DNA of 64,000 bases from Begonia masoniana (taxonomy: Eukaryota; Streptophyta; Magnoliopsida; Cucurbitales; Begoniaceae): assembly GCA_022432975.1 (NCBI GenBank), contig CM039502.1:25690383-25754382 (forward strand), in the 5' to 3' direction. This document shows positions 923 to 49,192 of this stretch, one piece after another; position 1 is the first letter of the stretch; each line of letters starts with the position of its first letter. The notes beneath the pieces were generated by a model. The model searched no databases. It saw only the letters and a list, made by a program, of their open reading frames with translations, and was not told the DNA's origin. A program made the position numbers and the translations under genes.

Positions 923-925
923 GTA

Positions 926-19087: not shown

Positions 19088-22000
19088 TGGTAAGAGGTCA
19101 ACAAAGAGAAACCAACGAAGACAGTAATACCATTGCCCAGCTAACAGAATTGGTTCTTCGTCTACCTGCCAGATTTACCAGCTTGTGGCTACTAGAGAGA
19201 AGAGCATGGGAATTCTAGCTCGAATACGACTCATGACCATGGTGGCGATCGTTTTCACCGACTTCGACCTCCGATATTTAATGGCCAAGTTTTGGATCCT
19301 ATCTATGCTGAAGAATGGATTCGAACAATTGAGGACATGTTTAAGTATGCTAAGGTCAAAGAGGGGCACAAGATCACATGTGCTGTTTTTCATCTTGCAC
19401 TGGATGCAAGGCATTGGTGGGACTCAATTGAGAGCACTACTAACATGGAAACTATGACTTAGGCATGGTTCAAGACGGCCTTCTTTGACAGCTACTTCAG
19501 CCGAGCGGTTCGGGCCAGCAAAAAGATGGAGTTTATGCAGCTGCGCCAAACCGGTTCTGTGGCGGACTATATTTGTAAGTTTGAAGCATTGTCACGATTT
19601 GCACCTTGTTTGGTGGATGATGAAGAAGACAAGATTCACCAATTTGTCCAAGGGCTGAAGCCAAATCTTTTCAGGGGTGTGAAGACCGCAGGAATTCATA
19701 ACATACCTTATTCTGAGGTGGCAGCTAAGGCCTTGGAACTGGAAGAGGTTGAAATAGCAGTGCAAGGGCAACATGACAGAATAGAGGGTGGCAACCACAG
19801 CAGAACAGGGGAGGGCAACAACAACAGAAAGGTGTGAAGAGACCCTTCAATCCAAATGACGACCAAGGAAAGGGAAAACGACCTCAAGGGGCTCCTCAAG
19901 CTCCCCTATGTTTCACCTGCCAGAGGAACCATTACGGCGAGTGTAAGTTATTCACGGGCCGATGTTTCAGGTGCGACAAGATTGGTCATTGGATTAAAGA
20001 TTGTCCTATACCGCCGGATGCAAACCGAGCGAGAGTGGCGCCTAGAGTTTTTGCCCTGATGGAAGATGAAGATGCAATTCAGCACACGGTTATAACAGGT
20101 ACAATTATGATCTACAGTGTATCCACATACACACTTATTGATACGGGTGCTACACATTCTTTCGTAGCAACTACGTTTGTATGCATGTATAATCTACGCT
20201 TTTTGCCAGCTGTTAAGTCTTATAGCATCATGTTAGCATCGGGAGAGTCCTTACATTCAGAACAGGTAGAGAAGGGTGATATTGTATCAGTAGGGGACAA
20301 GGAGCTATATGTAGAATTGATCATAATCGTTATGAAATGGTACGAAGTTATTTTTGGGATGAATTGGTTATTCAGACATTTCGCCCCAATAAGTTGTAGG
20401 ACTTGATTAGTTGAATTCCGACCCCCGAATGGAGACCGGTAGTCCTTCCAAGCCATTCCAAAAACAAGCAAAATGCCAATTATATCCTCGATGGATGCTC
20501 AGTAGTTATTGAAGCATGGATGTGTGGGTTATCTAGCTAGTGTAATTGATATAAAAGGATAAGCTAAAACTCCAAGACATTCCTATAGTTCGAGAGTTTC
20601 TTGAGATACTCTTGGACGACCTGCCAGGGTTACCGCCTGATAGGGAAATTGAATTTGTCATCGATACGTACCCTGAAGTCTTGCCAGTGTCTAAGAATCC
20701 CTATCGTATGGCACCCGTTGAACTGAAGAAGCTAAAAACTCAGTTACAAGAGTTAGTAGACAAGGGTTTTGTGCGCCCTAGTTGTTCTCCCTAGGGTGCA
20801 CCTGTTTTATTTGTCAAGAAGAAGGAAGGGGCCCTCAGAATGTGCATAGATTACAGGGAGTTGAACAAACTGACAATCAAGAGCAAATACCTCTTGCCCC
20901 GAATCGACGACCTGTTTGACCAGCTTCAAGGAGCCAAGATATTTTCTAAAATCGACTTACGCTCAGGCTACTACCAGTTAAAAGTCAAGGCCAAGGACGT
21001 GCCTAAGACTGCGTTTCGAATCCGATAATTGCATTATGAATTTCTTGTGATGTCGTTTGGGTTGACGAACGCTCCTGCAGCCTTCATGGACATGATGAAC
21101 CGAGTGTTTCGAGAATATTTGGACAAGTTTGTTATTGTGTTTATAGATGATATTCTGATTTACTCTCGGACTGAGGATGAACATGAAGATCACCTAAGGA
21201 TTGTTTTGGCGACTCTTAAGCAGCAGCAGTTATATGCCAAATTCTCTAAGTGCAAATTTTGGCTGGATAGAGTCAACTTTTTGGGTCACGTCATCTCTGC
21301 AGAAGGCATCTCTGTGATTCAATTAAAATAAAAGTGGTAAAAGATTGGCCACAACCAAGGAATGCCAACGAAGTTCGTAGTTTCCCTGGATTTGCAGGCT
21401 ATTACAGAAAGTTCATCAAAGGATTCTCGATGATAGCCAAACCTCTGACTTGTTTAACAAAGAAAGACATCAAATACTCTTGGTCAGGAGCTTGCGAGGA
21501 GAGTTTCCAGACGCTGAAACTAAAATTAACGACAGCTTCTTTACTGACACTCCCTATAGATGAGGGAAAATTCAGTTTATATTGCGACGCATCTAAGATT
21601 GGATTGGGGTGTGTGTTGATGCAAGAGGGCAAAGTTGTAACGTATACTTCCAGGCAGCTGAAAAGTTATGAGCAGAATTACCCCACTCACGACCTGAAAT
21701 TTGCCGCTGTGGTATTTGCACTAAAAATCTAGAGACAATACTTTTATGGTCAGCAGTGTGAGGTGTTTTCGGACCACAAAAGCCTGAAATATCTTTTTAC
21801 TCAAAAGGAATTAAATATGAGACAAAGGCGTTGGCTTGAATTCGTTAAAGACTACGATTTTGAGATTAAGTACCACCCTGGTAAAGCCAATGCGGTAGCT
21901 GATGCATTAAGCAGAATGCAAACGACGATGATGTCAGCCATGTCTCTACCCTTAAAAGTTGAAGTTCAGGAGTTTGAGTGGGAGATAGTTTCGGAATTAT

Positions 22001-23470
22001 CGACCTTGCTTTCGGAGTTAACCGTTCGGCCTACTATCTTGGATAAGATCAAAGAGGCTCAACAATTAGATTTGAAGGAGAAGAAAAACATCGTGAGCAA
22101 GATGTCGAATGTTCCTTCTTAGTTAAGTCTTTCGGAGGATGGGATTTTGAAGTTCAAGATCGCTGGTATGTCCCTAAAGATGATGTGTTACGAAAGTTGA
22201 TTTTGGCCGAGGCGCACTCATCTCCCTTTTCTGTGCATTCAGTTAACACCAAGATGTACTGTGATTTGAAGTTGCATTATTGGTGGCCGAATCTGAAACG
22301 AGATGTTGCTAAGTATGTGGAGTCATGTATGGTATGCCAGCAAGTTAAGGCAGAACACCAAAGACCGGGAGGTACTCTTCAGCCTCTACCGATTCTTGAA
22401 TGGAAATGGAAAAACATAGCCATGGACTTTGTTGTGGGTTTACCGAAGACGATCAAAGGCCAGGATAGCATTTGGGTTATAGTCGACAGGATGACAAAAT
22501 CAGCTCACTTCCTACCTATAAAGATGACTTATACGATGGATCAGTTTGCTAACTTGTATGTCCAGGAGATCATCAGGTTACATGGGATCCCGGTATCGAT
22601 TGTCTCGGATCGTGATCCCAAGTTTACCTCAAGATTTTGGAAAATTTTACAAGGCGCGATGGGTACAAAGTTAACCTTTAGCACGACATTTCACCCTCAA
22701 GCAGATGGACAATCAGAACAAACTATTCAGATACTTGAGGACATGTTGAAGGCATGCGTGCTTGAATTTCAGACATCCTTGTGTCGACACTTACCATTAG
22801 TTGAGTTCTCCTATAACAATAGTTACCAATCCACAATTGGTATGACACCTTATGAGGCGTTGTATGGAAGGAAGTGTAGATCGCCTTTCTACTGGGATGA
22901 AGTTGGTGAAGCAAAACTGTTAAGCCCAGAGATTGTGCAGCAGATGTTTGATAAGATTGCTGTTATTAGACAAAGGATGGAGACCGTACAAAGCTGACAG
23001 AAGAGTTACGCTGATCAGAGAAGAAGGGATCTTGAGTTTGCTGTCGGTGATGAAGTTTTCTTAAAGATCTCACCGTTCAGAGGTGTTATGCGGTTTGGAA
23101 AGAAAGGGAAGCTTAACCCAAGATTTGTCAGACCCTTCCCTATTTTGACAAGGATTGGGAGTACTGCATATAGGTTGCAGCTGCCTTCATCAGTGGACGT
23201 AGTTCACAACGTCTTGCACGTGTCGATGTTAAGGAAGTGCAAACGTGATCCGACACATGTGGTGGAGCCGGTTAATATTGAGATTCAACCAACCTTGACA
23301 TATGAAGAGAAACCGATGCGTCTCCTTGAATCGTCTATTTAGGTGTTACGGAACAAGGAGATCCCACTGGTAAAACTATTACGGAAGAATCACAACATTG
23401 AGGAGGCCACTGTCGGAGTGACAACAGGACATGATGAACAGGTATCCATAATTGTTTAGGTACGTAAATT
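19088..23470 (+). pseudogene. Gag-pol of element D-E, heavily broken
   Basis: Same domain order as element A: gag with LRQTGSVADY near 19541; zinc knuckle CFRCDKIGHWIKDC (~19965-20006); protease DTGATHSF (~20139); RT with [10 protein letters not shown] (~21139-21170); RNase H with YCDASKIG (~21579); zinc region and integrase with VIVDRMTKSAHF (~22477) and a DD35E core; chromodomain-like tail to about 23470. There are frameshifts near 19160-19330, 19835, 21330 and 23400, and stops near 19460, 20405, 20792, 21027, 21729 and 22120. Several stops stand where relatives have Trp, Gln or Gly. No function expected. Confidence 0.93.
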
Positions 23471-29149: not shown

Positions 29150-30048
29150 TGTAACGCCCCCGAACCCACCCTGGTTCGGAGTGCTACTTTGCTAGCCAAT
29201 CTCACGTTAAAATCTAATTTAAAATAAGACTAGACTCGCTAATGCCCCTTAATCCTAATCTCTAAGCACCACGGCGTTCTTCCCGAAAATTTCGGCAAAG
29301 TAACGTCTGAAAATGGCGCCTCCAAAATGCTAAATACCTGCACACAATTCAATTCCCAACCAGTCCAGAATACTCTTACATCCAACATACGAAATCTCTA
29401 AAATACCAGTATCCCTAAGTGAAGAAAATCCGCAGTATAGGGCGACACGTCACCCTTAACTTAACTATATACAACAACCATACACCTAGCTATACCATAA
29501 CTGTTACAAACCTTAACCAAACAGAGTTATACACATGCACATCATTTCCACCAACAGACATTTAAAATACTACCAAACTACAAATCCCACATCTTCCGAA
29601 GACCATGGTCGAGACGCCCCGACAGATGCCCGCACCGGCACACCCCATGCACCACCAACTGCTGCCACGTCCTGGCTCACTCGCTTAGCTCACCTGTAAC
29701 CGCGTCGTTACCTACACCACAGAACACACACGCACACGTAAGCTTACGCTTAGCAAGTAGGGATAACAAATATAAACAAGCACAATGCACACGCAACACT
29801 GAACAAAACAACCAAACAACACAACACAACAATGCAACTCGACTAGATAGAATACAAGCTACACACAACACTGAACAAAACCACCAAACAACACAACACC
29901 ACAATGCAACTCGACTACTCAACTCATAGTTGCCCGCACCCCAAAGGTGCCTTACACATTGCCCGCACCGAAGTGCCTTACACAACGACAAACTCACAAC
30001 GACAGACACACAACGACAAACACACAACGACAAACACACAACGACACA

Positions 30049-30232
30049 TTGCCCGCACCGAAGTGCCTTAGTTGCCCGCCCCGAAGGGCCTTAGTTGCCC
30101 GCACCGAAGTGCCTTAGTTGCCCGCCCCGAAGGGCCTTAGTTGCCCGCACCGAAGTGCCTTAGTTGCCCGCCCCGAAGGGCCTTAGTTGCCCGCCCCGAA
30201 GGGCCTTAGTTGCCCGCCCCGAAGGGCCTTAC
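30049..30232 (-). repeat. 23-bp UUCG-hairpin array in LTR F, 8 units
   Basis: Units start every 23 bp from 30049. On the plus strand, type a has GCAC-CGAA-GTGC and type b GCCC-CGAA-GGGC, in order a b a b a b b b. On the transcript strand each is a 4-bp stem with a TTCG loop. The difference between the types changes both arms together. Degenerate units lie at 29932 and 29959. Confidence 0.92.
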
Positions 30233-30548
30233 ACTTTAACCGACTACCACGCTAACTAATGCAACACCACACGACAACCAACCAATGCAACCCACACGAC
30301 AACCAACCAATGCAACCCACACAACAACCAACCGACCAATACTCAAATCCCAACAACAACCAAGAATTTCGTTGCCACACGACTTAATACCAAACAAAAC
30401 AACTAACCAAGTAATACAAAGCAAAACTACCAACTCACAATTCAAACAAAGTAAAGCGGCCAACTCACCAGTTTAAACAAAACAAAGCAGCCAACTCACA
30501 AATACTTAACCAGACCAGAACAAAGTAAAGCAATCAACCATCAACAAT

Positions 30549-30700
30549 GCTTGACCAACAAAGAAGACAACAAAACATCAACAACAAAGAACCAACAAGG
30601 CTTAACCAACAAAGAAGACAATCAAACATCAAACAACAAACAACCAACAAGGCTTAAGCAACAAAGAAGACAGCCAAACAACAAACAACAAAATAAATCC
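30549..30700 (-). repeat. About 51-bp AAC-rich tandem repeat in LTR F
   Basis: GCTTGACC/GCTTAACC/GCTTAAGC with ACAAAGAAGACA recurs at 30549, 30600 and 30652. The same units are in LTR G near 48001-48125. Confidence 0.85.
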
Positions 30701-31572
30701 TACCGTTCCGTGGTATAGGCCCGAAGGCAATACAAACGTTCCCTACTTACCTGACTGCTCGGCTTTACGGTGCTCACCTCTAATGATCAATTCACTCGTC
30801 CGATAACCTATCAATTATAGAAAATAACTTAGCAATTCACTCATAAATTTCTAAACTAAAACTAACCATACTTCAAACTCCTTTCTCTCACCAAAACACA
30901 AAACCCGATTTTATGTAAATTGTACCGTCCAACTTTAACTCCATTAAAATTAAGCCTACATTCACCAATTACTCTCAAACTACTATTTTTAGCCTAATCC
31001 AACTAAAATCTAACTAAATGGGCCACCAATTTGGGTTCGGTAAAAACCGACCCGAACTTCAAACGCGCGTAACTTTTGCGTCGGATATCAGAATCGAACA
31101 ATTCCAGCGGCCACGTACTCCTCTAATAACCTATTTTAACCTGCCAAAAGGAATTTCAAAACAAATAACCCTAGCTAGGACAAAATGGCAAAAACCCGAA
31201 TCTGCCCCTAACTGTAAAATTTCCCCATTTTGGTTTTTCATCAATTTTCACTCAATTGCTCACCAATCAACCATATTTAGTCTCAATTAACATAATCTAA
31301 CCAAAAACCCCGAGAATACACAGCAAAACCGAAATGCCCTAAATCGGGCTTGCTGAATTTCGCCCAAATTGGGCTCCTCACGGCCAGGCGATTATTGCCA
31401 GCCCACTACCCGACAATCTCAGGCCAAAATCGCCCGAAAACGGCCGGTGATCGGAGCTCAATCGAGCTCTTCACTCACGGCTTCGAACAGAGAGGAAAAC
31501 AGGGGAAAAACTCATGCATACCAGTCGGTGCGCGCGCGGAGACGGTTGGAACCTCCTCGCCGGCGGTGATCG

Positions 31573-31862
31573 TGTTGTGGAACCCAGGGTTCCCAACTCA
31601 TACTCTCACGAAATCGTTCTACAAAGGAAATGGAAAACGGAAAAGAAAGAAAAACAGTAAATAAAGAAACAGATTATCATTCATTTCACCTCTTCTCACG
31701 CCTCTCTCTGCTGCCTTTATCTGCTTCCTTCCTCCTCTTCTAACAGATTGGACACGTCAGCTGAGGGTCCATAACTGGGTTGGGCTCGGTTCTCTTGGTT
31801 CTGCTGTGTTTCCCCTCAGTGGCCCAACTGCATAGCCCATCATGGAAGAGGCTTCCATGACA
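31573..31862 (-). repeat. 3' LTR of the gene-capturing element
   Basis: 290 bp. On the minus strand it starts TGTCATGGAAG at 31862 and ends CCACAACA at 31573. It differs from the 5' LTR at three C/T positions. Confidence 0.95.
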
Positions 31863-31899
31863 AATCCTCCCCCTTAACATATCCTTGTCCTCAAGGATA
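31863..31899 (-). other. Polypurine tract and AGGA-loop hairpin of the gene-capturing element
   Basis: Minus strand: TATCCTTG (31899-31892), loop AGGA, CAAGGATA (31887-31880), then a purine-rich tract (AAGGGGGAGGATT, ~31875-31863) directly before the LTR. Confidence 0.85.
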
Positions 31900-32039
31900 A
31901 AAATTTGGACAACAACATATTCATATGCTCTTCGACAATCGGCCTCTTCAACGTTAGTATCTGAATCACAGTCAATCTCTACTACCAACCTGCATCGTTT
32001 CCTTCTGCATCTGATCCTTCCCTGTAAATCCACTAGCAA

Positions 32040-32642
32040 CAAGCTGAGACAAATAAATGAGGACAGCATGCTGACGACAAACATCACAACGACGTAGTTG
32101 TAAAATGCTGGTCGGGGTGAAAGCTTCTCTCTCCATTTTGAGAAATGAAATAACAGGATGAAGCCATAAACTGTTGTAAGCAATAGCTGATAAATGAGCC
32201 ACAAGCTCCACTTTGCTCTGTGTGTACTTTCGCCATCCATGAACAATGGAATCCCGAATCCAAAAATATATATTGCCTTAAGGACAAGATCTACTCCAAC
32301 AATAATCCCTAATATAATGAAATTATGAGCTAAAGATTCCAGCCTTGTAGCATAATTTTCTTGGAGTAAAAAGACAACCAAGCTAATTTCTAAACAAAGC
32401 ATTCCGGGTGATGTAAACAAGGAGAAAATGTGCCAGACAACCTTCTTTCCAGGTGAGTATTGCCATGTCTAAAGAGAGCACCAAGCTAGATTGAGCAAGT
32501 AAGCAGCCCAAAGAAGAGTATAATAAGAGATGATTACATAAGAACGGCTAGTGTAGAGCTTCTTCAGATTCTTCCTCGCGTGTATCATCAAGTAGATCAA
32601 GAATAGCACCGACGGCACAACCAAAACTGCGTCATACCAAAT
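32040..32642 (-). pseudogene. Captured fragment of a CAND/TPRA1-like seven-TM protein gene
   Basis: Translation gives a membrane protein with LVVPSVLFLIYL, SRSYVIISYYTLLWA, SGMLCLEIS-like SPGMLCLEISLVVFLLQ, IYIFGFGIPLF and KWREKLSPRPAFY blocks. This is the pattern I recognise from plant 'candidate G-protein-coupled receptor'/TPRA1-like proteins (transmembrane, function poorly known). Several hydrophobic segments are clear. Two stops (near 32643 and 32480) stand where Trp and Gln are expected. The segment covers most of the family's core but not both ends, and it has no visible intron. It is followed by element sequence with the LEDKDML motif before the purine tract. Confidence 0.7.
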
Positions 32643-32689
32643 TCAATGGCAGAGGGATGTTGTGTAAAAGTCATGGGGTAAGAGCTTAT

Positions 32690-32768
32690 GTTTCAGCAAA
32701 TTCTTCAGGACCATGTAAGTGCCGCCAGGCTTGAGAGAAACAATGCAGGCAACTAACTCTGATGGAAC
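32690..32768 (-). other. Unidentified segment between the FtsH and CAND-like fragments
   Basis: It continues the frame with [20 protein letters not shown] do not recognise it with confidence. It may be the start of the CAND-like fragment or a sixth captured piece. Confidence 0.4.
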
Positions 32769-32996
32769 AATATCAGCAATGAAGATAATGCAATGTGACT
32801 GCTTCTTCGCAACAGAAAATAAATCACCAACTCTCCTGGCTCCAACACCAACATCCATCTCTTCGAACCCACTGCCACTGCATGAGAAAAAAGGAACCAC
32901 CGTTTCTCCAGCAATAGCCCTCGCCAACTTTGTCTTGCCTGTGCCTAGAGGACCAACGAGTACAACACCTCTTGGGAGCCTTCCACCAGGACGAGT
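32769..32996 (-). pseudogene. Captured fragment of an FtsH-type AAA protease gene
   Basis: About 76 residues match the AAA ATPase core of plant organellar FtsH proteases: [17 protein letters not shown], then a Walker A with GPLGTGKT (usual GPPGTGKT), [17 protein letters not shown], and CIIFI at the start of Walker B, where the match ends before the acidic residues. Membrane-bound FtsH degrades proteins in chloroplasts and mitochondria. This piece lacks the rest of the ATPase, the protease domain and the membrane segments, so it cannot act. It is in frame with the preceding VAC14 tail. Confidence 0.8.
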
Positions 32997-33065
32997 AAAT
33001 CGCGTTGGCTTATAACATAATTTTTTCCTTGTCGATTTATAGTTCAGAAGTTTACGAATTAAAAC

Positions 33066-33245
33066 TTCAGAGGAAGTCAATAAAATCAAATTCAATGCCT
33101 GAACCATACTAGAGGCAAAATCCAGACCTGATTCTCCTTTTAATATTTTTGAGAACTCTCTGTAGACTCTTTCCGCATCTAAAAGTACACTGAGTCTGCA
33201 AATTATTAAAGCTCCATGCCCCTCCAAAAGAGAATTATCCACACT
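33066..33245 (-). pseudogene. Captured VAC14 fragment, second part (shifted frame)
   Basis: It continues the VAC14-like sequence of the chimeric ORF in another frame: [20 protein letters not shown] and [17 protein letters not shown]. One frameshift near 33240 separates the two parts. The fusion point with the FtsH piece lies just downstream. Confidence 0.75.
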
Positions 33246-34815
33246 GAAAATTATGAACAAAGAAGACAACAAGCTGACTGAAATGTTGATCATCTTTTGA
33301 GATGCATGCAAGATCCTCAAGGACAAGGAGCACCACCTCATTAGATGAAACTGATGGTGCCTTAAGTAGCGTGTCAAGTAGGTCAAGCGAAAAAGTCAAG
33401 ACCTCACCGCGATGTCCACTTAATAGTGCCAATATCCATAGCAATGCTTCAATTCTAGTGGCCTCATATTCACTCGATCTTTGCCTCCTTACAATGGAAA
33501 ATATGGCCCCAATGTCAAATCCTTCAGGTGGATTAGCCTTGATATTTCTAAGCTCTTTATTGGTTTCTCCAGCAACCACTCTAATTTTCTCATCTTTATT
33601 AGATATGCCAGGTAAAATTACTCCCAGAAGATCTGCATAATATGGTACTAATTGGTCCCCATCAAGCTTTACAAACTTGTGAATCCAAGTGATAGCCGTC
33701 AAGCGAGTAAACTCATCTGCACAACCAGCCCTCTGTACCAATATTTCAGCCATTCGACCACAATCTACAGATGGGGAGTTTGTTATCTCTTGGAGAAATT
33801 CTGTCAGTGCAAAATCAGCTTGTTGCCATATTTCATGGCTATTATCACTTAGCATATCAAACAAACCATCAAGGAAATAAGGAAGAAAACCCAGCATAAC
33901 AATTTCAGGGACACCATCCAGCACAGTGGTGACGGTAAAAACATCAAGACTCTCTTTCATCTCTTCAAAAATCTGAGCAACTTCCTCGTATAAAGATCCT
34001 CGCCGACAACAACTAATAAGTGTGTTATACGTATACAGATAAGGAGCAATCCATGCAGTCTTCATACCATCGACAAGAACAAGAATCTTATTCCAAGGCA
34101 TACCCATTTTACCATAAACATTCACCATTTTTTCTTTTACTAACTCCGTGGCTGAAAAATCTTTTGTCAACTTGATTTGAGCAGGACGTGCTTCGTAGTT
34201 TTGGTGATTGGTACACAGGCCATTGCCTAGTTCAAGGGGCTGCATTCGATCAGATCCTGAATCGGTATCCTCACCGTTAGTCGATTCGTCATTCTCCAGT
34301 GCAGTCTCCTTTCCGGCGTGGTCATCTTCTGAACTCAGTATATCGTTCTCATCTGCCGGAACAGGATTAATAATATCAACAGCCTTCTTTCCGGAAACAA
34401 TAGCGTCCATCTTCACCTGCAAGTCGATTACCTGCTTGAAAACCAACTTCCAGCAACCACTAACTCTAGAATCTAAACCCTTTAAAGAATCGAAAAACAG
34501 ATTCATCAGCGTCTCTTTCACCTGCAATTTTTCTTTCGGGTTGCTTTGAATCAACTCCACCACCTCTTTTTCTAGAAGCCATTTCTCAATCTCATTAACT
34601 CCTCGCTTCGTCGCCAAGATCTTCTTCATGCTCTTCCTCGCCAAAAATCCGCGCAACACTTTCTGGATTTTCAGCGCCGAATCGGATCTACTCCGCTCTA
34701 ATCTGGTGCTCGCCTGAGACTCAACCATTTTCGTAAGCAGGGACAAAATCGCCTCCGTCTGTGCTTTCGATTCTGCTAACAGTTCTTCAAGTGATTTTGC
34801 TCTCGTTTCAGCCAT
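33235..34815 (-). CDS. Chimeric open frame: leader + BAG + PPR + VAC14 fragments
   Basis: 526 codons from the ATG at 34815 (the frame is open back to 34872 in the LTR, and even reads through the primer site). Residues here count from 34872. 20-60: Lys/Glu-rich leader, possibly element-derived. 64-160: IQ motif ([16 protein letters not shown]) followed by a BAG-domain-like helix region, as in plant BAG chaperone regulators that bind Hsp70. 200-250: acidic linker. 250-307: part of a pentatricopeptide protein ([31 protein letters not shown]). 308-545: HEAT-repeat part of VAC14, the scaffold of the PIKfyve/Fab1 lipid kinase complex ([32 protein letters not shown]). These genes normally contain introns; none is seen, so capture via RNA is likely. 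Whether it is translated is unknown. Confidence 0.75.
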
Positions 34816-34830
34816 TTTCTGATCGTAACT

Positions 34831-34842
34831 GCTCTGATACCA
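34831..34842 (-). other. Primer binding site of the gene-capturing element
   Basis: On the minus strand TGGTATCAGAGC follows the LTR after one base, complementary to the initiator tRNA end. Confidence 0.9.
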
Positions 34843-34843
34843 C

Positions 34844-35133
34844 TGTTGTGGAACCCAGGGTTCCCAACTCATACTCTCACGAAATCGTTCTACAAAGGAA
34901 ATGGAAAACGGAAAAGAAAGAAAAACAGTAAATAAAGAAACAGATTATCATTCATTTCACCTCTTCTCACGCCTCTCTCTGCTGCCTTTATTTGCTTCCT
35001 TCTTCCTCTTCTAACAGATTGGACACGTCAGCTGAGGGTCCATAACTGGGTTGGGCTCGGTTCTCTTGGTTCTGTTGTGTTTCCCCTCAGTGGCCCAACT
35101 GCATAGCCCATCATGGAAGAGGCTTCCATGACA
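34844..35133 (-). repeat. 5' LTR of the gene-capturing element
   Basis: 290 bp, matching 31573-31862 except for three transitions. It is bordered by GATCG at 35134-35138. Confidence 0.95.
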
Positions 35134-35212
35134 GATCGACTCGCCGAACGCCGCCCCGCGTTTCCCCCTCTCCCCTGCCTCCTCTCGGCGTCGGGCCCGA
35201 GCAACAGAATGG

Positions 35213-36738
35213 TGATAAGTGTGTATTTTACACACTTATTTATATCTTTTTACACTTGATTTGATAAGTTTTTCCTTGAGTGTTTGAAGAAATTTGATAA
35301 ATTGTGGGTAAGTGCGCAGATATTAAATATAGAACAGGAGGCTGGAAAAAGGAGGTGAAAAAGAATTAAAATTCAAGTTAAGTGAGAAGCAAGAGCGATC
35401 AATCTCTATACATACAAATTTGAAGGCAGCGATCGATCTCTATGCTATCCAGAGATCGATCACCAAGCATAAGGAGAAGGAAGATCGCTACATTTATTTG
35501 GAAGAAGCCAGCGATTCGTTACATAGAAGAGCAGCGATCGATCTCAATATAAATCCAGTAATCGATCGCCGTACATGGAAGAGAAGGAGAAGCAATTGAC
35601 AAATACATATTCCAGCAATGAAAATAAAGGAAGCAGCGATCGATCTCTATGAAGTCCAGAGATCGATCGCCACACAATTCATATCGCTACACAAGAGATG
35701 CCGCGATCGATCTCTGTAACTTGGCAGAGATCGATCGCTGATCAAAGTTTAATATGGAAAGCTGATGTGTTTTAATCTAAGCCATTCACCTGAAGACAGA
35801 TCTAATCTCAACCGTTGATGGAGTTAAAAGAAACCATTAAAAACCTAAAGCAGACCTAAATTCAGGCATTCAGCAAATCCTGAGGCCGCGACTGAGAGCA
35901 CCACCGAGCGAATTCTTCGACGAGGAGGGGCGATCATTCTTCATAGTTTTCTTTTCCTTTCTTTTTAATTTCACTATTTAATTATGCAACTCTTTATTAT
36001 TACTGTTGTTTATTTTTCTAGTATGAACTAATCTTCCCGTTCTAGGGTTTCGATGTAGCTTTACTATGATTGTTTATTTTTCTTGATTCAAGTATTTAAT
36101 TTTCTGTTTCTGTTCTGTGTTTGAGTAATTTATTCTGAACGTAATGCTTAGGTTTGCTTGATCACCAAAACTAAGAACTTTAGGGTTGATTCGGGATGCG
36201 AGAGCGGAGAATTTAACCGTGCACTGAATAATTTGCCATGAAAAGGATGTTAGACTAGAGATAGCTAATGCGTTCATGTGGTAGTATAATTTCTTGTTCT
36301 TAATGTATTCAATTAATTCTCAGGATTAGAGACCGAGAGGTAATAATTTGTTAATTGAATAAGTTTATCTTTGCTCGAGAGAGATTGATAAATATTTTCG
36401 TGAAATTGCCATCAACACATAGAAATAGGATTTAATTATTTGGATTAGGTTTAATAAATAGGATTAGTTAAGTGAAATCGGAACCCTGGATTTTCTCAAC
36501 ATATAATCTTACTTCTTTATTTTAGAATATTTTATTTAAATTGTTCACTTATTTTATTTGAATTATTTTAGTTTTAAAAATCCAAATCACTAAATTTATT
36601 GTTTCTTTTCAAATTAAACTAGAAATTAGATATTCAACTTTTAACATAATTGTTCCTCGTGGGATCGACACTCGTACTTAATACACACTTTATTACTTTT
36701 GCGACACGTGCACTTGCGTAGTACGATTTTTCGCAACA
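35213..36738 (+). repeat. 5' LTR of the Athila-type element
   Basis: TGATAAGTGTG...TCGCAACA, 1526 bp. It differs from the 3' LTR at two positions seen (near 35344 and 36345). Confidence 0.97.
35431..35738 (+). repeat. Four GATCGATC stem-loops in the Athila LTR
   Basis: Inverted pairs: 35431-35441/35451-35461 (11 bp); a 9-bp GCGATCGAT pair near 35534-35569; 35636-35648/35658-35670 (13 bp, loop of 9); 35703-35716/35725-35738 (14 bp, loop of 8). They are repeated in the 3' LTR at about 42407-42714. Confidence 0.9.
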
Positions 36739-36744
36739 AGTTTT

Positions 36745-36762
36745 TGGCGCCGTTGCCGGGGA
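36745..36762 (+). other. Primer binding site, tRNA-Asp type
   Basis: TGGCGCCGTTGCCGGGGA, the site typical of Athila/Tat elements, six bases after the LTR. Confidence 0.93.
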
Positions 36763-36900
36763 ATAAATTTTGTTATTTTTTTGAATTATTTGATTTTAGT
36801 TTATATTTGAAATTTTAATTTATTTTTTTTTATTATTATTTATTTATTTTATTTTATTTTATTGTAAGCTTAAATTACATTATTTGCACATTGCAGGTGC

Positions 36901-39252
36901 ATGCGAAAATTAGGTACTGCCAACCTAATCCCTATCGACCTTGAAATTGAACGAACCTGTCGCCGAAATCGAAGGGAAACAAAACTAGCAATTATGGCAG
37001 ATGATCAAAACGCAAATCTACAACGGAGGGTTGAAGTGGCAGAGGTCGAACGGCGAACTTTGCTCGATTATGTTATGCCACCCATCTACGGGATTCAATC
37101 AGCAATTCGGAAACCTGCTATCACGTGCAACAATTTTGAAATAAAGCCGGGAACCATACAAATGATCCAGCAGTATCAATTCTGTGGTCTGCCTAACGAG
37201 GATCCAAAAGATCATATTGCAAGCTTCGTTGAGGTCTGTGACACGTTTAAATATCATAATGTTTCTGATGATGCTGTTAGGCTTAGGTTGTTCCCCTTTA
37301 CACTAAGAGATCGCGCTAAAAACTGGTTAAATTCCTTACCCCCGGATTCAATTACAACGTGGAATGAATTAGTTCAAAGATTCCTATCTAAATTCTTTCC
37401 CTTTGAAAAAATGGCAAAACTTCGCAACGAAATTAACAACTTTAATCAATTCGATGGCGAGACGGTCTACGAAGCATGGGGCCGATTCAAGGAACTTTTA
37501 CGAAAATGCCCCCAGCATGGTCTACCACAATGGATGCAAATACAGACATTCTTCATCGGCCTATCAAGTTCTACACGGACGCTTGTCAACTCAGCAGCTG
37601 GTGGATCACTATTATCTAAGACAGAAGTGGAGGCATTTAACCTATTAGAAGAGTTATCCCTCAATAATGATCAGTGCCCAGTTGAACGTCAGATTTTGAG
37701 GAGGCAGTCAAATACACCAGAAATGGAAGCAATAAGAGCATTAACTACACAAGTTGCATCTCTCACTCAGCACATCCAAGGAAATCAAGCTATAGTTAAT
37801 GCAATTCAATCACCGATCATGCAATGTCAATGGTGCCAAGGACCACATGCGAGTGAAAACTGTCAGCAAGGGAACCAAATGGTTAGAAGTTCATCTGAAC
37901 AAGCCCAATATGTGAGAAATTATAATAGACCGACACTTCAAAATTCCGGTAATTACTATAATGGGGGGCGCAACAATCATCTGAACTTCTCTTGGAAGAA
38001 CCCGAACAACGCCATGCAGATGCCACAAGCTAATCAGCCGGGACCTCAGTTTCCTGAAAGACAATCTAATCTGGAGGAATTAATTGCCAAAATGGGAGAA
38101 CGCACCAATAATATGATTGCTGAAATGGGGGAACACACAAACAAATTTATGGCTGAAACACGAATAACCCTGCAGAACCAGTCGGCTCAAATTCGAAGCT
38201 TAGAGACACAAATGGGCCAGATCGCAGCTGCACTAAATGGACGCCCACAAGGTACATTGCCCAGTTCTACTGAAATCAACCCCAGAGAACAATGCAATGC
38301 CATTACACTTAGGAGTGGAAAAGTGATTGAAAATTGTACTAAGGAAAATAAGAAAGTGGTCGCACATGACGGAGTGCATTCGTCATCATCCGAGTCCACA
38401 CCAGAGGATCAAAGGCTACAGGAAACTCCACCTCAGATTCCAAAGGAGATCATCCCCAAAATTCCTTTTCCTCAACGACTGAAAAATGTGAAGCTTGATA
38501 ATCAGTTTTCTAAGTTTCTTGATATCTTCAAAAAGCTCCACATCAATATTCCATTCGCAGAGGCACTCGAGCAAATGCCTAAATATGCAAAGTTTCTGAA
38601 AGACATCTTGTCTCAAAAACGGAAAATTGACAAATATGGCACGATCGCTTTAACTGAGGAATGTAGTGCCATTGTTCAACGGAAGCTTCCACAAAAATTG
38701 AAAGATCCGGGAAGTTTCACCATACCATGTGCAATTGGGGAGTCCATTTTTGAGCGGGCATTATGTGATTTGGGTGCTAGTATAAATTTGATGCCGCTAT
38801 CTATATTTCGTAAGCTGGGTATTGGTGAAGCAAAGCCCACCAGGGTAATCCTACAGATGGCCGATCGCTCTATAAAACATCCGTATGGGGTGATTGAAGA
38901 TGTCCTTGTCAAAGTCGACAAGTTTATTTTTCCCGCTGATTTCTTGATTCTCGATATGGACGAAGACCGAGGCATCCCGATAATATTAGGTCGACCATTT
39001 TTAGCAACAGGGGGAGCTGTTATTGATCTAAGAAAAGGAGAGCTCAAATTGCAAGTATATGATGACGAGGTGACATTCAAAGTATATAAATCTATAAATT
39101 ACCCAACAGCTAGCAATGAGCCAATTGCCGATAATGTGCCAGACAAAGAGCTTCCTGAAATTGATAAATTAGTAAACGGACAAAAAGCGAAGCCATATCT
39201 TAACGGAGTTTTGCAGAATGATACAACTATTACTCTCCGTGCACCAGATTAG
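36901..39252 (+). CDS. Athila-type Gag-protease, open
   Basis: 783 codons without interruption; ATG at 36901 about 160 nt after the LTR. Residues ~95-260 form the retrotransposon Gag domain (LFPFTLRDRAKNWLNSLP, FLSKFFPFEK, YEAWGRFKELLRKCP). Near residue 302 is a zinc knuckle CX2CX3HX4C (CQWCQGPHASENC). 380-450 has a coiled-coil-like run with ALNGRPQGTLPS. About 620-740 is an aspartic protease with DLGASINLMP (DLGA in place of DSGA, usual in this clade) and ILGRPFL. The frame stops at 39252, followed by the AAGCGCTTGGTGGGAGGCAACCCA region usual downstream of Athila pol, so the polymerase has been deleted. The product could form particles and process Gag. The open frame in a young copy suggests recent expression or a recent source. 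Confidence 0.92.
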   Translation: MRKLGTANLIPIDLEIERTCRRNRRETKLAIMADDQNANLQRRVEVAEVERRTLLDYVMPPIYGIQSAIRKPAITCNNFEIKPGTIQMIQQYQFCGLPNEDPKDHIASFVEVCDTFKYHNVSDDAVRLRLFPFTLRDRAKNWLNSLPPDSITTWNELVQRFLSKFFPFEKMAKLRNEINNFNQFDGETVYEAWGRFKELLRKCPQHGLPQWMQIQTFFIGLSSSTRTLVNSAAGGSLLSKTEVEAFNLLEELSLNNDQCPVERQILRRQSNTPEMEAIRALTTQVASLTQHIQGNQAIVNAIQSPIMQCQWCQGPHASENCQQGNQMVRSSSEQAQYVRNYNRPTLQNSGNYYNGGRNNHLNFSWKNPNNAMQMPQANQPGPQFPERQSNLEELIAKMGERTNNMIAEMGEHTNKFMAETRITLQNQSAQIRSLETQMGQIAAALNGRPQGTLPSSTEINPREQCNAITLRSGKVIENCTKENKKVVAHDGVHSSSSESTPEDQRLQETPPQIPKEIIPKIPFPQRLKNVKLDNQFSKFLDIFKKLHINIPFAEALEQMPKYAKFLKDILSQKRKIDKYGTIALTEECSAIVQRKLPQKLKDPGSFTIPCAIGESIFERALCDLGASINLMPLSIFRKLGIGEAKPTRVILQMADRSIKHPYGVIEDVLVKVDKFIFPADFLILDMDEDRGIPIILGRPFLATGGAVIDLRKGELKLQVYDDEVTFKVYKSINYPTASNEPIADNVPDKELPEIDKLVNGQKAKPYLNGVLQNDTTITLRAPD

Positions 39253-39392
39253 CAAGCGGCTTACAACGTCAAGCTAATGACGCTAAAACAAGCGCTTGGT
39301 GGGAGGCAACCCACCCAAGTATCCTTTTTATTTTTTATTTTTATTTTTATTTCATTTTATTAGTATTAAATTAAAAAAAAACAAAACAAAAT

Positions 39393-39715
39393 ACATCTTG
39401 TCTCATAAACGGAAAATTGACAAATATGGCACGATCGCTTTAACTGAGGAATGTAGTGCCATTGTTCAACGGAAGCTTCCACAAAAATTGAAAGATCCGG
39501 GAAGTTTCACCATACCATGTGCAATTGGGGAGTCCATTTTTGAGCGGGCATTATGTGATTTGGGTGCTAGTATAAATTTGATGCCGCTATCTATATTTCG
39601 TAAGCTGGGTATTGGTGAAGCAAAGCCCACCAGGGTAATCCTACAGATGGCCGATCGCTCTATAAAACATCCGTATGGGGTGATTGAAGATGTCCTTGTC
39701 AAAGTCGACAAGTTT
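39393..39715 (+). repeat. 323-bp duplication of part of gag-protease
   Basis: It copies 38603-38925 with one difference (39406). It starts after an A-rich stretch and ends where AAGTTTATTTTT of the protease gene meets a TATTTT microsatellite, suggesting a template switch at matching bases. Confidence 0.95.
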
Positions 39716-40300
39716 TATTTTTATTTTTATTTTTATTTTTATTTTTATTTTTATTTTTATTTTTATTTTTATTTTTATTTTTATTTTTATTTTTATTTTT
39801 ATTTTTATTTTTATTTTTATTTTTATTTTTATTTTTATTTTTATTTTTATTTTTATTTTTATTTTTATTTTTATTTTTATTTTTATTTTTATTTTTATTT
39901 TTATTTTTATTTTTATTTTTATTTTTATTTTTATTTCAAGAAATTATTATTTTTTTTTTTTTTTTTTTTTTGTTTTTATTTTTATTTTTATTTTTATTTT
40001 TATTTTTATTTTTATTTTTATTTTTATTTTTATTTTTATTTTTATTTTTATTTTTATTTTTATTTTTATTTTTATTTTTATTTTTATTTTTATTTTTATT
40101 TTTATTTTTATTTTTATTTTTATTTTTATTTTTATTTTTATTTTTATTTTTATTTTTATTTTTATTTTTATTTTTATTTTTATTTTTATTTTTATTTTTA
40201 TTTTTATTTTTATTTTCATATTTATTTTTATTTTTATTTTTATTTTTATTTTTATTTTTATTTTTATTTTTATTTTTATTTTTATTTTTCTTTTTATCTT
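39716..40300 (+). repeat. TATTTT hexanucleotide microsatellite
   Basis: Two long runs of (TATTTT)n, about 39716-39936 and 39975-40289, are separated by CAAGAAATTATTA and a poly-T run. Reading it gives Tyr-Phe or Ile-Phe repeats (and Leu-Phe in another frame) that are not genes. Confidence 0.97.
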
Positions 40301-40561
40301 TCTTTTTCTTGTTCTAAGTAGTTTTATTTTAGATTAATTAGCCATTTATTTTTCCTTTATTTTTATTTTTATTTTTATTTTTATTTTTATTTTTTCCTTA
40401 TTTTATTTATTGTATTCTGTTTCTATTTCTATTTGTTTTTTTTGTAATTCGTTCTTTTTATCTTTCTTTCTTTTTATTTTCTTCTTACTTCATTTTTTTT
40501 CTCTCGTATTTTCATTTCCCGTTTCAAGCATTTTCATTTTCGGTTAGTATTTCTCTATTTA

Positions 40562-40593
<32 letters not shown>

Positions 40594-42153
40594 GTTCTTG
40601 ATAGATTGCTCTCTTCGACTGAAGCTCCACCACACTACTGTCGGGCCCCACATGAGGTACACTATCCCCTTTCCTATTTTTCGTGTATGCTTTATTTACA
40701 TTGAGGACAATGTCTATATTAAGTTTGGGGGGGTTTTTATTTAGATATTATTTAGTAAGTCTGCTTAATATTTTGAATTTTATGGTATGATTATTTATTT
40801 CATTTGTTTAAAGTGTCGATGACTGCACCTTTGATCAATGCATGTTTCAACTTCTGAATAGATTCTGAGATAGTACGATTTGTGGTAGTAGCATTGATTG
40901 GAGCTTAGGAAGTTAGACTTGTTTGTGTGGAAATGTTCATTCTTATTTAAATTTAGCTGATAATGATATAAATTGTTGTCTTGAGATCGAGAGCCTAAAC
41001 ACAGTAAGGGAGTGCTTGAGTGTAAACACTGAAAGGGAGTGAGCTCCATTTAAATTTAGTGAGTGATTAGTGAGTATTAAATTGTTCCTGGTTTTGCCTT
41101 GCATTCATGAATACAAATTATGATTTTTACAGAAATAAGAGAATGACTTAGGCCATTTTTGATTCGTTTGAGCCTTTATTGACATACCTCATTTGTGTCA
41201 TTTAAATGGCACCCTTAGTCTCCTATTTGAACCTTTATTTATCACTGTTTTGTCAACCCTAATTTAGCCTACCCTGAAATTATTTTGACTATCCTGTTTA
41301 TTGAGCACAGGGTTGTGGGTACATTTTATGGGGAGAGTTGGAGAAAGTAGTGGTGAGAATCAGAGTTAACTCTTTTGTCAATTGTCTAAGTTGTCAGTAT
41401 TTTGGGATTTTATTTATTCTTCTTTTATATTTTTCAGTGATTAAAGTTGTGAAAAAAAAAAAAAAAAAAAAAAAAAGTTGAATTGTTCAGTAGTAGAACA
41501 ATTTCTTATATGCTATTTAATTTGTTATTATTGTTATTATTTGTATCTTATGTTTGTTAGTAAAGACATTGACAAAGGAGTTGGTTTTGAGAAATAGAGA
41601 GTGAGACAAGTTTGGGGGGATTATTGAGTTAACTGATTGGAAAAGAGTTCAACTGAGTGTAAGGAGTGAGGGTGACATAAGGATGGATTGTGCTCTAGAG
41701 TTTCGTTTGAATCCAAAAATTTCCTACCTTATAACCTGGCCTTACATTACAAGCTTAATTAAAGACCTATCGACTTTTATTCTGTTTACTCATATTTGTT
41801 ATTAGTGAATAATGGGCAAGACTGATGAACAATAAGAGTGGAGTGAGTGATCCTGAGAGGTATTTTTGATTTCCCTTCTCATAAGACACAATTATAGATC
41901 TATCAGTTAAACGAGAATGAGTCTGAGCATGTACACACACAAGTATTTCTGATTAAATTTCTCTCAATGCGATATCATGAGTTGTATTATTGAAAGTATT
42001 TATTTAGATAGTTTATTTGCATGCAAATATCAAGCTGAGACAAAATACTGCGAATTGTGATTTAGATTATTTTACCATGGAAATTTGAAACATTTTGCAG
42101 ACTTTAAAAATTCCTGAATAGACTTGGCTAAATTTCTACGCTTATTTTTGTTC
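40301..42153 (+). other. Non-coding 3' region of the Athila-type element
   Basis: No gene. It holds poly-A runs near 40568-40593 and 41453-41476. Two AAGTTTGGGGGG tract-like copies lie at 40721-40734 and 41608-41620. No env-like ORF is present. Confidence 0.8.
40698..40734 (+). other. Internal AGGA-loop hairpin and tract-like sequence
   Basis: ACATTG-AGGA-CAATGT (40698-40713) followed by AAGTTTGGGGGGGT. It mirrors the true 3' end 1.45 kb downstream. Confidence 0.75.
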
Positions 42154-42188
42154 GCTTGAGGACAAGCTTTCATTCAAGTTTGGGGGTG
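42154..42188 (+). other. AGGA-loop hairpin and polypurine tract of the Athila-type element
   Basis: GCTTG-AGGA-CAAGC (42154-42167), then AAGTTTGGGGGTG (42176-42188) directly before the 3' LTR. Confidence 0.85.
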
Positions 42189-43714
42189 TGATAAGTGTGT
42201 ATTTTACACACTTATTTATATCTTTTTACACTTGATTTGATAAGTTTTTCCTTGAGTGTTTGAAGAAATTTGATAAATTGTGGGTAAGTGCGCAGATATT
42301 AAATATAGAACAGGAGGCTAGAAAAAGGAGGTGAAAAAGAATTAAAATTCAAGTTAAGTGAGAAGCAAGAGCGATCAATCTCTATACATACAAATTTGAA
42401 GGCAGCGATCGATCTCTATGCTATCCAGAGATCGATCACCAAGCATAAGGAGAAGGAAGATCGCTACATTTATTTGGAAGAAGCCAGCGATTCGTTACAT
42501 AGAAGAGCAGCGATCGATCTCAATATAAATCCAGTAATCGATCGCCGTACATGGAAGAGAAGGAGAAGCAATTGACAAATACATATTCCAGCAATGAAAA
42601 TAAAGGAAGCAGCGATCGATCTCTATGAAGTCCAGAGATCGATCGCCACACAATTCATATCGCTACACAAGAGATGCCGCGATCGATCTCTGTAACTTGG
42701 CAGAGATCGATCGCTGATCAAAGTTTAATATGGAAAGCTGATGTGTTTTAATCTAAGCCATTCACCTGAAGACAGATCTAATCTCAACCGTTGATGGAGT
42801 TAAAAGAAACCATTAAAAACCTAAAGCAGACCTAAATTCAGGCATTCAGCAAATCCTGAGGCCGCGACTGAGAGCACCACCGAGCGAATTCTTCGACGAG
42901 GAGGGGCGATCATTCTTCATAGTTTTCTTTTCCTTTCTTTTTAATTTCACTATTTAATTATGCAACTCTTTATTATTACTGTTGTTTATTTTTCTAGTAT
43001 GAACTAATCTTCCCGTTCTAGGGTTTCGATGTAGCTTTACTATGATTGTTTATTTTTCTTGATTCAAGTATTTAATTTTCTGTTTCTGTTCTGTGTTTGA
43101 GTAATTTATTCTGAACGTAATGCTTAGGTTTGCTTGATCACCAAAACTAAGAACTTTAGGGTTGATTCGGGATGCGAGAGCGGAGAATTTAACCGTGCAC
43201 TGAATAATTTGCCATGAAAAGGATGTTAGACTAGAGATAGCTAATGCGTTCATGTGGTAGTATAATTTCTTGTTCTTAATGTATTCAATTAATTCTCAGG
43301 ATTAGAGACCGAGAGGTAATAATTCGTTAATTGAATAAGTTTATCTTTGCTCGAGAGAGATTGATAAATATTTTCGTGAAATTGCCATCAACACATAGAA
43401 ATAGGATTTAATTATTTGGATTAGGTTTAATAAATAGGATTAGTTAAGTGAAATCGGAACCCTGGATTTTCTCAACATATAATCTTACTTCTTTATTTTA
43501 GAATATTTTATTTAAATTGTTCACTTATTTTATTTGAATTATTTTAGTTTTAAAAATCCAAATCACTAAATTTATTGTTTCTTTTCAAATTAAACTAGAA
43601 ATTAGATATTCAACTTTTAACATAATTGTTCCTCGTGGGATCGACACTCGTACTTAATACACACTTTATTACTTTTGCGACACGTGCACTTGCGTAGTAC
43701 GATTTTTCGCAACA
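42189..43714 (+). repeat. 3' LTR of the Athila-type element
   Basis: 1526 bp, nearly identical to the 5' LTR, followed by the AATGG duplication. Confidence 0.97.
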
Positions 43715-43748
43715 AATGGCGAATGCCATTCTGTTGTTTTTATTTTAT

Positions 43749-43789
<41 letters not shown>

Positions 43790-44059
43790 TAAATAATAAC
43801 TATTTCATTAATTTAAACTAGCTAATTACCGTTTTGCCCTCCCGAAAATTCTGCTAAATCCTGTCATTAAATTATAAATTTCCGTAAATTGACCCTCACC
43901 CCGTTCCCAGCTTAAGTTCTCCATTTAGAATATCCGAACACCAATTAATTAATCAATTAGTTTAACCGAATTTATTCATTTTTCTTTAAATTAATTAAAA
44001 CAACTATTTATTAAACAATTACCTAATCATTTTATTTTCTCGATTTCCCGGGTGTTACA

Positions 44060-46538: not shown

Positions 46539-47099
46539 TGTAACGCCCCCGAACCCACCCTGGCTCGGAGCGCTACTTTGCTAGCCAATCTCACGTTAAA
46601 ATCTAATTTAAAATAAGACTAGACTCGCTAATGCCCCTTAATCCTAATCTCTAAGCACCACGGCGTTCTTCCCGAAAATTTCGGCAAAGTAACGTCTGAA
46701 AATGGCGCCTCCAAAATGCTAAATACCTGCACACAATTCAATTCCCAACCAGTCCAGAATACTCTTACATCCAACATACGAAATCTCTAAAATACCAGTA
46801 TCCCTAAGTGAAGAAAATCCGCAGTATAGGGCGACACGTCACCCTTAACTTAACTATATACAACAACCATACACCTAGCTATACCATAACTGTTACAAAC
46901 CTTAACCAAACAGAGTTATACACATGCACATCATTTCCACCAACAGACATTTAAAATACTACCAAACTACAAATCCCACATCTTCCGAAGACCATGGTCG
47001 AGACGCCCCGACAGATGCCCGCACCGGCACGCCCCATGCACCACCAACTGCTGCCACGTCCTGGCTCACTCGCTTAGCTCACCTGTAACCGCGTCGTTA

Positions 47100-48206
47100 C
47101 CTACACCACAGAACACACACGCACACGTAAGCTTACGCTTAGCAAGTAGGGATAACAAATATAAACAAGCACAATGCACACGCAACACTGAACAAAACAA
47201 CCAAACAACACAACACCACAATGCAACTCGACTAGATAGAATACAAGCTACACACAACACTGAACAAAACCACCAAACAACACAACACCACAATGCAACT
47301 CGACTACTCAACTCATAGTTGCCCGCACCCCAAAGGTGCCTTACACATTGCCCACACCGAAGTGCCTTACACAACGAAAAACTCACAACGACAGACACAC
47401 AACGACAAACACACAATGACAAACACACAACGACAGACACACAACGACAAACACACAACGACAAACACACAACGACACATTGCCCGCACCGAAGTGCCTT
47501 AGTTGCCCGCCCCGAAGGGCCTTAGTTGCCCGCCCCGAAGGGCCTTAGTTGCCCGCACCGAAGTGCCTTAGTTGCCCGCCCCGAAGGGCCTTAGTTGCCC
47601 GCACCGAAGTGCCTTAGTTGCCCGCACCGAAGGGCCTTAGTTGCCCACCCCGAAGGGCCTTAGTTGCCCGCCCCGAAGGGCCTTACACTTTAACCGACTA
47701 CCACGCTAACTAATGCAACAGCACACGACAACCAACCAATGCAACCCACACGACAACCAACCAATGCAACCCACACAACAACCAACCGACCAATATTCAA
47801 ATCCCAACAACAACCAAGAATTTCGTTGCCACACGACTTAATACCAAACAAAACAACTAACCAAGTAATACAAAGCAAAACTACCAACTCACAATTCAAA
47901 CAAAGTAAAGCGGCCAACTCACCAGTTAAACAAAACAAAGCAGCCAACTCACAAATACTTAACCAGACCAGAACAAAGTAAAGCAATCAACCATCAACAA
48001 TGCTTGACCAACAAAGAAGACAACAAAACATCAACAACAAAGAACCAACAAGGCTTAACCAACAAAGAAGACAATCAAACATCAAACAACAAACAACCAA
48101 CAAGGCTTAACCAACAAAGAAGACAGCTAAACAACAAACAACAAAATAAATCCTACCGTTCCGTGGTGTAGGCCCGAAGGCAAAACAAACGTCCCCTACT
48201 TACCTG
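47100..48206 (-). other. Leader module in LTR G
   Basis: Minus strand: CAGGTAAGT (48206-48198); hairpin GCC-TTCG-GGC (48181-48172); GTTCCGTGGTGTAGG on the plus strand at 48158-48172 pairs with CCTACACCACAGAAC at 47100-47114 with one mismatch. The implied interval is 1103 nt. Confidence 0.72.
47480..47686 (-). repeat. 23-bp UUCG-hairpin array in LTR G, 9 units
   Basis: Order of unit types: a b b a b a, then two units with one arm changed (47618, 47641), then b. Same period and stems as in LTR F. Confidence 0.92.
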
Positions 48207-49105
48207 ACTGCTCGGCTTTAACGATCAATTCACTCGTCCGATAACCTATCAATTATAGAAAATAACTTAGCAATTCACTCATAAATTTCTAAACTAAAAC
48301 TAACCATACTTCAAACTCCTTTCTCTCACCAAAACACAAAACCCGATTTTATGTAAATTTTACCGTCCAACTTTAACTCCATTAAAATTAAGCCTACATT
48401 CACCAATTACTCTCAAACTACTATTTTTAGCCTAATCCAACTAAAATCTAACTAGATGGGCCACCAATTTGGGTTCGGTAAAAACCGACCCGAACTTCAA
48501 ACGCGCGTAACTTTTGCGTCGGATATCATAATCGAACAATTCCAGCGGCCACGTACTCCTCTAATAACCTATTTTAACCTGCCAAAAGGAATTTCAAAAC
48601 AAATAACCCTAGCTAGGACAAAATGGCAAAAACCCGAATCTGCCCCTAACCGTAAAATTTCCCCATTTTGGTTTTTCATCAATTTTCACTCAATTGCTCA
48701 CCAATCAACCATATTTAGTCTCAATTAACATAATCTAACCAAAAACTTCGAGAATACACAGCAAAACCGAAATGCCCTAAATCGGGCTTGCTGAATTTCG
48801 CCCAAATTGGGCTCCTCACGGCCAGGCGATTATTGCCAGCCCACTACCTGACAATCTCAGGCCAAAATTGCCCGAAAACGGCCGGTGATCGGAGCTCAAT
48901 CGAGCTCGTCACTCACGGCTTCGAACAGAGAGGAAAACAGGGGAAAAACTCATGCATACCAGTCGGTGCGCGCGCGGAGACGGCTGGAACCTCCTCGCCG
49001 GAGTCGTCTGGCCGGAGAGCGTCGAATCGCCGGCGGTGATCGACTCGCCGAACGCCGCCCCGCGTTTCCCCCTCTCCCCTGCCTCCTCTTGGCGTCGGGC
49101 CCGAG

Positions 49106-49133: not shown

Positions 49134-49145
49134 TTTTTATTTTAT

Positions 49146-49192
<47 letters not shown>

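Follow-up and report, generated by a model that had tools for sequence, protein, structure and literature searches.

Bs1 of maize lacks a polymerase of its own, measures 3.2 kb and is bounded by long terminal repeats (LTRs) of 302 bp. In these respects it resembles the element described here, which occupies 3561 bp on the minus strand (positions 31573-35133) of a 64,000-nucleotide stretch of the Begonia masoniana genome (assembly GCA_022432975.1, contig CM039502.1, positions 25,690,383 to 25,754,382), in the following denoted as the window. As described by Elrouby and Bureau, Bs1 is an LTR retroelement that unites segments of several host genes in a new chimeric gene (accessible text of PMC13317346 and PMC5408686) and, according to the excerpt of PMC4717578, holds exons only. 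The donors given there are three (a membrane ATPase, a xylan endohydrolase and a beta-1,3-glucanase), whereas the Begonia element probably has six, all of them different ones. The soybean element GmaRetroS15, a terminal-repeat retrotransposon in miniature (TRIM), likewise combines LTRs, a target-site duplication of 5 bp and exon-only pieces of three host genes. It is far smaller (gene-bearing TRIMs measure 1172-1449 bp, a size class that the Begonia element exceeds), and the portion of PMC4717578 that describes it mentions no fused frame. With three genes each, Bs1 and GmaRetroS15 are therefore the closest known cases.

Gene fragments inside intact LTR elements, as found here, are also known from maize B73. 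The excerpt of PMC2774510 reports 425 elements with at least 189 captures; by the criteria applied there, no element holds two or more standard nuclear genes. Two further published sets list 672 and 1343 captured genes, and their accessible text gives no element with several donors. The literature surveyed, available in part and mostly outside subscription journals, yielded no LTR element that exceeds three donors, and nothing relevant tying VAC14, BAG or PPR genes to retrotransposons was among the literature matches listed. We conclude with high confidence that the Begonia element is a non-autonomous LTR retrotransposon in which pieces of spliced mRNA, probably from six host genes, have taken the place of the coding region.

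Anatomy and insertion site

The element is complete, with the following parts:

34844-35133, minus strand: 5' LTR, 290 bp, with TG..CA ends
31573-31862, minus strand: 3' LTR, 290 bp, with three differences from the 5' LTR
34831-34842, minus strand: primer-binding site TGGTATCAGAGC, one base from the 5' LTR
31863-31877, minus strand: polypurine tract TTAAGGGGGAGGATT, adjoining the 3' LTR
31568-31572, no strand: left copy of the target-site duplication GATCG, read from the sequence
35134-35138, no strand: right copy of the target-site duplication GATCG, read from the sequence
29150-31572, plus strand: older target repeat, whose other copy (46539-49450) carries the empty site

Since TGGTATCAGAGC follows one base past the right-hand LTR and TTAAGGGGGAGGATT precedes the left-hand LTR, both on the minus strand, the element runs from right to left, and the right-hand repeat is therefore the 5' LTR. 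We take the primer-binding site to be of the initiator-methionine tRNA type. The first-pass annotation had proposed a complete small element with 290-bp LTRs, the GATCG duplication, a primer site and a purine tract, each of which is present in the sequence; it had also counted three differences between the LTRs, all of which are transitions. Both LTRs contain a palindrome (TCATGGAAG..CTTCCATGA) close to the U3 end (31840-31860 and 35111-35131).

The insertion point is documented by a paralogous copy of the target repeat, which reads through it near 49040 with a single GATCG and no insert. The left flank (29980-31563) shares 96.5% identity with 47425-49001, and the first 82 bases of the right flank share 97.6% with 49038-49119; a short stretch immediately upstream of the insertion is missing from the filled copy. 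The locus hence combines the defining features of an LTR retrotransposon: direct LTRs with TG..CA ends, target-site duplication, primer-binding site, polypurine tract and a site known without the insert. No Pfam domain of gag, protease, reverse transcriptase, RNase H or integrase was found in the open stretches and peptides scanned, which sets the element apart from autonomous Ty1/copia and Ty3/gypsy elements. Within the window, neither the LTR nor the interior has a second copy (blastn, E-value 1e-3). Runs of at least 8 A or T are absent from inside the element, and the LTR end has no match among viral contigs.

Captured pieces and donor splice junctions

The interior comprises, in the reading direction of the element, the following segments, preceded by the long reading frame that covers the first of them:

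33235-34872, minus strand: predicted 545-codon frame from an upstream ATG, spanning leader, BAG, PPR and first VAC14 part
34699-34815, minus strand: N-terminal leader of 39 codons, open into BAG
34384-34698, minus strand: BAG5-like piece (IQ motif and BAG-domain region), frame 0
33949-34137, minus strand: PPR protein piece, frame 0 (Pfam PPR, E-value 7.7e-7)
33063-33927, minus strand: VAC14 piece, residues 198-485 of plant VAC14 proteins of 726-735 amino acids, frame 0 and then frame 1
32769-33014, minus strand: FtsH AAA piece, frame 1
32673-32774, minus strand: probable RIO2 kinase N-terminal piece, frame 1
32049-32651, minus strand: CAND2/TPRA1 (Tmemb_40) piece, residues 35-236 of a plant protein of 300 amino acids, frame 1
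31878-32048, minus strand: 3' part before the polypurine tract, without family match

Aligned donor pieces account for 2313 of the 2981 interior bases. As in Bs1, several host-gene pieces thus lie between the LTRs, as judged by homology to donor families. All six are on one strand in sense orientation, which agrees with the single direction noted in the first-pass annotation; retrotransposon-transduced genes are usually found in the sense of gag and pol (accessible text of PMC7264820).

Protein searches covered the 545-codon frame, the BAG region and the CAND2 region, and the donor matches indicate a flowering-plant host. The strongest match is that of the VAC14 piece (E-value 2.3e-101, 77% identity over 42% of the frame, among the best 120 of 621 matches), which aligns over 288 residues in two blocks with one frame change near 33243 and is also recognized by Pfam (Vac14_Fig4_bd, the Vac14 C-terminal domain, E-value 1.9e-14). 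The CAND2/TPRA1 piece, with its two in-frame stops (32643-32645 and 32469-32471) read as X, shows up to 68% identity among the best 120 of 138 matches and matches Pfam Tmemb_40 with E-values of 1.7e-47 and 4.9e-18. For the BAG piece, the search returned 18 proteins with E-values up to 1 from 384 candidates, the best at 3.8e-27, with up to 59% identity to BAG-domain proteins over half of the searched region. Pfam detects only the IQ motif in the window protein at this position, and the BAG identity hence rests on the protein search. As a chance control, 300 resampled elements were compared with the VAC14, BAG and CAND2 proteins; their best score was 27.7 bits. The FtsH piece is recognized by Pfam (AAA/FtsH, E-value 7.4e-16) and by NCBIfam (FtsH_fam, E-value 2.4e-35, model positions 183-263), far under the whole-protein cut-off of the latter, as a fragment would be, and FtsH is the top match of a PDB sequence search with the AAA piece. 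Its donor may resemble the plant FTSH4 type, and that of the PPR piece the At5g02860 type.

The first-pass annotation had named at least five donors (BAG, PPR, VAC14, FtsH and CAND/TPRA1). All five stand, and the count was low, as RIO2 is probably a sixth, judging from sequence similarity. In a PDB sequence search, the piece matches about residues 31-64 of RIO2 in six RIO2 sequences (E-values 7.1e-5 to 1.9e-4), the remaining three matches of that search being unrelated proteins with E-values of at least 0.7. Rio2_N is also the best Pfam family (E-value 0.0036; 0.049 in the scan of the window protein). The 40-residue stretch between FtsH and CAND2 had at first been regarded as perhaps the N-terminus of CAND2 itself, an assignment that was dropped after the RIO2 match.

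The leader is possibly a remnant of gag; it has no Pfam match, and the viral contigs gave 25 pattern matches and no relative by tblastn. Neither the acidic stretch after BAG nor the 3' tail (31878-32048) has a PDB match up to an E-value of 10 or a Pfam match; the tail may derive from the end of pol.

Splice sites of the donors were inferred from 120 VAC14 and 120 CAND2 database proteins, each set aligned to one reference. In VAC14, a junction at 472|473 is indicated by 8 of the 120 proteins, which skip the segment from residue 473 (P0014, P0061, P0070, P0074, P0075, P0113, P0115 and P0117, among them three of Citrus sinensis and two of Glycine soja), and by an insert of 88 residues after 472 in P0066. 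No junction was inferred within residues 198-471 from these proteins. In CAND2, inserts after residues 94-96 in 5 of 120 proteins (P0217, P0224, P0236, P0238, P0240) and after 159-160 in 6 of 120 (P0186, P0191, P0199, P0205, P0211, P0241) indicate junctions at about 95 and about 160; a possible fourth at 215|216 (P0234, P0242) is weaker. The element aligns with VAC14 residues 198-485 and CAND2 residues 35-236 (202 residues) without an intron and crosses all three junctions, one in VAC14 and two in CAND2, without insert, which points to capture from spliced mRNA. Retained introns, named beforehand as evidence against a capture, were thus sought at these three junctions and not found. The likeness to Bs1 in lacking introns holds for the VAC14 and CAND2 pieces only, at inferred junctions.

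Reading frame, donor constraint and age

The claim that three pieces are fused in an open frame of 526 codons proved exact: counted from the ATG at 34815, the frame joins BAG, PPR and the first VAC14 part. The longest open stretch measures 569 codons. When the element was Markov-resampled 300 times and the three frames of its strand were read, the longest stretch had a median of 91 codons and reached 158 at most. Frame 0 holds BAG, PPR and the start of the VAC14 piece; the remainder of VAC14 follows in frame 1, together with FtsH, RIO2 and CAND2, and the single change occurs inside VAC14, near 33243. As the frame changes only within VAC14, all five joins between donors keep the phase. The probability of this by chance is 1/243, or 1/81 when RIO2 is disregarded and four junctions remain, for a test conceived after the data were seen.

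Unlike that of Bs1, the frame is now broken, by the frame change in VAC14 and the two stops in CAND2 over 739 compared codons. Free drift at a divergence of 0.05-0.08 would yield a mean of 3.7 to 6 stops in 739 codons, with two observed (P from 0.28 to 0.05). The expected number of frameshifts is 4 to 16 at a divergence of 0.05-0.06, with one observed (P of at most one from 0.06 to less than 0.001), under the assumption of indel/substitution ratios of 0.05-0.15 and a share of 80% of indels that shift the frame. Taken together, the counts lean towards selection on the frame, without proving it.

A possible extension, compatible with the capture of spliced mRNAs and held by us only tentatively, is that the chimera persisted as a single long fusion polypeptide because selection favoured an uninterrupted frame, which was lost only lately. 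The benefit may have lain in sparing the RNA from nonsense-mediated decay or in keeping a gag-fusion product. The in-phase junctions and the fewer-than-expected lesions speak for such selection. On the other side, the stop count is not significant by itself, the absence of stops from the first VAC14 part has a probability of 0.21 under neutrality, the indel parameters are assumptions, and the invariant residues of the donor families have not been kept. Somewhat more doubtful still is the specific proposal that the element once consisted of a single uninterrupted fusion, about 920 codons long, which began with a gag-like part, continued through all six captures in one phase and was under selection for frame and not for donor function.

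The loss of invariant residues was quantified for the VAC14, CAND2 and BAG pieces with 200 random half splits per family. Among the columns invariant in one half, those at which the fragment differs make up 15% in the first and 14% in the second part of VAC14, 17% in CAND2 and 19% in BAG, compared to median deviations of 0, 0, 0 and 2.4% for the held-out members; the mean share of held-out members that deviate as much is 0 for the first VAC14 part and for BAG. At near-invariant sites (thresholds 0.98, 0.98, 0.95 and 0.99, in the same order) the fragment deviates in 19 of 131, 4 of 32, 6 of 55 and 5 of 33 cases, and the maximum among members is 0.031, 0.133, 0.164 and 0; these columns were picked from the compared proteins, which biases members towards 0, and the held-out halves are the fairer control. 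Identity to the family consensus is low for the first VAC14 part (175/228, member minimum 0.877) and BAG (62/105, minimum 0.733), and inside the member range for the second VAC14 part (50/60, minimum 0.796). The conserved acidic pair after IIFI in the FtsH piece is altered relative to E. coli FtsH, and VAC14, FtsH, RIO2 and CAND2 are truncated; on these sequence grounds it is unlikely that the pieces have kept donor function.

With 14-19% of the family-invariant residues lost, the capture is probably older than the insertion. A replacement of 12-15% corresponds to about 0.06-0.08 substitutions per site under neutral change, compared to an LTR divergence of 0.005 per lineage (for the three differences counted, the 95% range is 0.6-8.8). 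On this basis the captures would be roughly ten times older than the present insertion, and the chimera would therefore have transposed before, provided that one rate applies, that no burst of reverse-transcription errors occurred and that the host donors are ordinary. The LTRs date the insertion to 0.4, 0.74 or 2.1 million years under three assumed rates. The recent insertion proposed in the first-pass annotation thus holds for the present copy and not for the captures, which look older.

By divergence, the order of insertion is the outer repeat (about 3.5%), the studied element (1.0%) and a neighbouring LTR element (0.13%). The outer repeat, of nearly 3 kb, is found at 29150-31572, 43709-44059 and 46539-49450, its left copy being split by two later insertions; these copies are probably the LTRs of one older element. 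The neighbour (35212-43715), inside the same older repeat, has repeats of 1528 bp (35212-36739 and 42188-43715) with 99.87% identity and a gag-like frame of 783 codons (36901-39252), a 334-bp piece of which recurs at 39389-39722 (99.1%) beside a long low-complexity array (39713-40517). Elsewhere in the window, a tandem array of units of about 41 bp (9012-10205) keeps a frame of 429 codons open (8980-10269). Gag-pol-like open frames occur in pieces at 1671-5561, 19834-22997 and 56034-59929 (reverse transcriptase and integrase recognized by eye), and 725-5873 is about 82% alike to 60190-55047 in opposite orientation.

Origin of the mosaic

The likeliest origin of the mosaic is template switching: host mRNAs would have entered the same particles as the element RNA, and the reverse transcriptase would have changed between these templates at least once per junction, while the LTRs, the primer-binding site and the polypurine tract were retained; enzymes of a relative would then have moved the chimera in trans. 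Packaging of mRNA with subsequent template switching is reviewed in the accessible portions of PMC5408686 and PMC13317346.

Several observations weigh against capture from six spliced host mRNAs or against parts of it. The splice junctions derive from protein models in databases, part of which may be misannotated, and the RIO2 assignment rests on 34 residues with a score of 18 bits, compared to a curated Pfam cut-off of 27. Deviations as large as that of the fragment occur in about 2% of the held-out proteins for CAND2 and in 0.8% for the second VAC14 part, and the consensus identity of the CAND2 piece is ordinary (147/201, member median 0.746). The host's own donor genes could themselves be divergent.

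Alternatively, the pieces could already have been joined when captured, for example if a Pack-MULE or Helitron had assembled them and the element took up the transcript of that mosaic in a single switch. Helitrons and Pack-MULEs collect genes more actively, with 1194 Helitron captures in maize compared to none of 425 LTR elements holding several genes (excerpt of PMC2774510). Pack-MULEs, however, hold exons and introns (excerpt of PMC4717578), and the three introns that can be tested are all missing here; the spliced transcript of such a mosaic would be intron-free too. We regard this origin as improbable. An ordinary host gene or processed pseudogene between chance repeats, named beforehand as a possible refutation, can be dismissed: the LTRs with their TG..CA ends, duplication, primer site and purine tract, the empty site, the mosaic of matches and the length of the open stretch all contradict it, and among the best 120 of 621 matches to the long frame, coverage never exceeds 48%, which also rules out that the interior is a single host gene.

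Exon shuffling by LTR elements in plants is represented by few multi-gene cases in the literature surveyed, as far as its accessible text extends, and the Begonia element is a richer example of the gene shuffling known from these few. Its probably six donors, free of introns where this can be tested and joined in phase, form a natural record of repeated template switching, which allows a test of whether selection on the reading frame filters captures. If the single-phase fusion was indeed under such selection, LTR elements would be exon shufflers that work in frame, screening what they capture by its reading frame.

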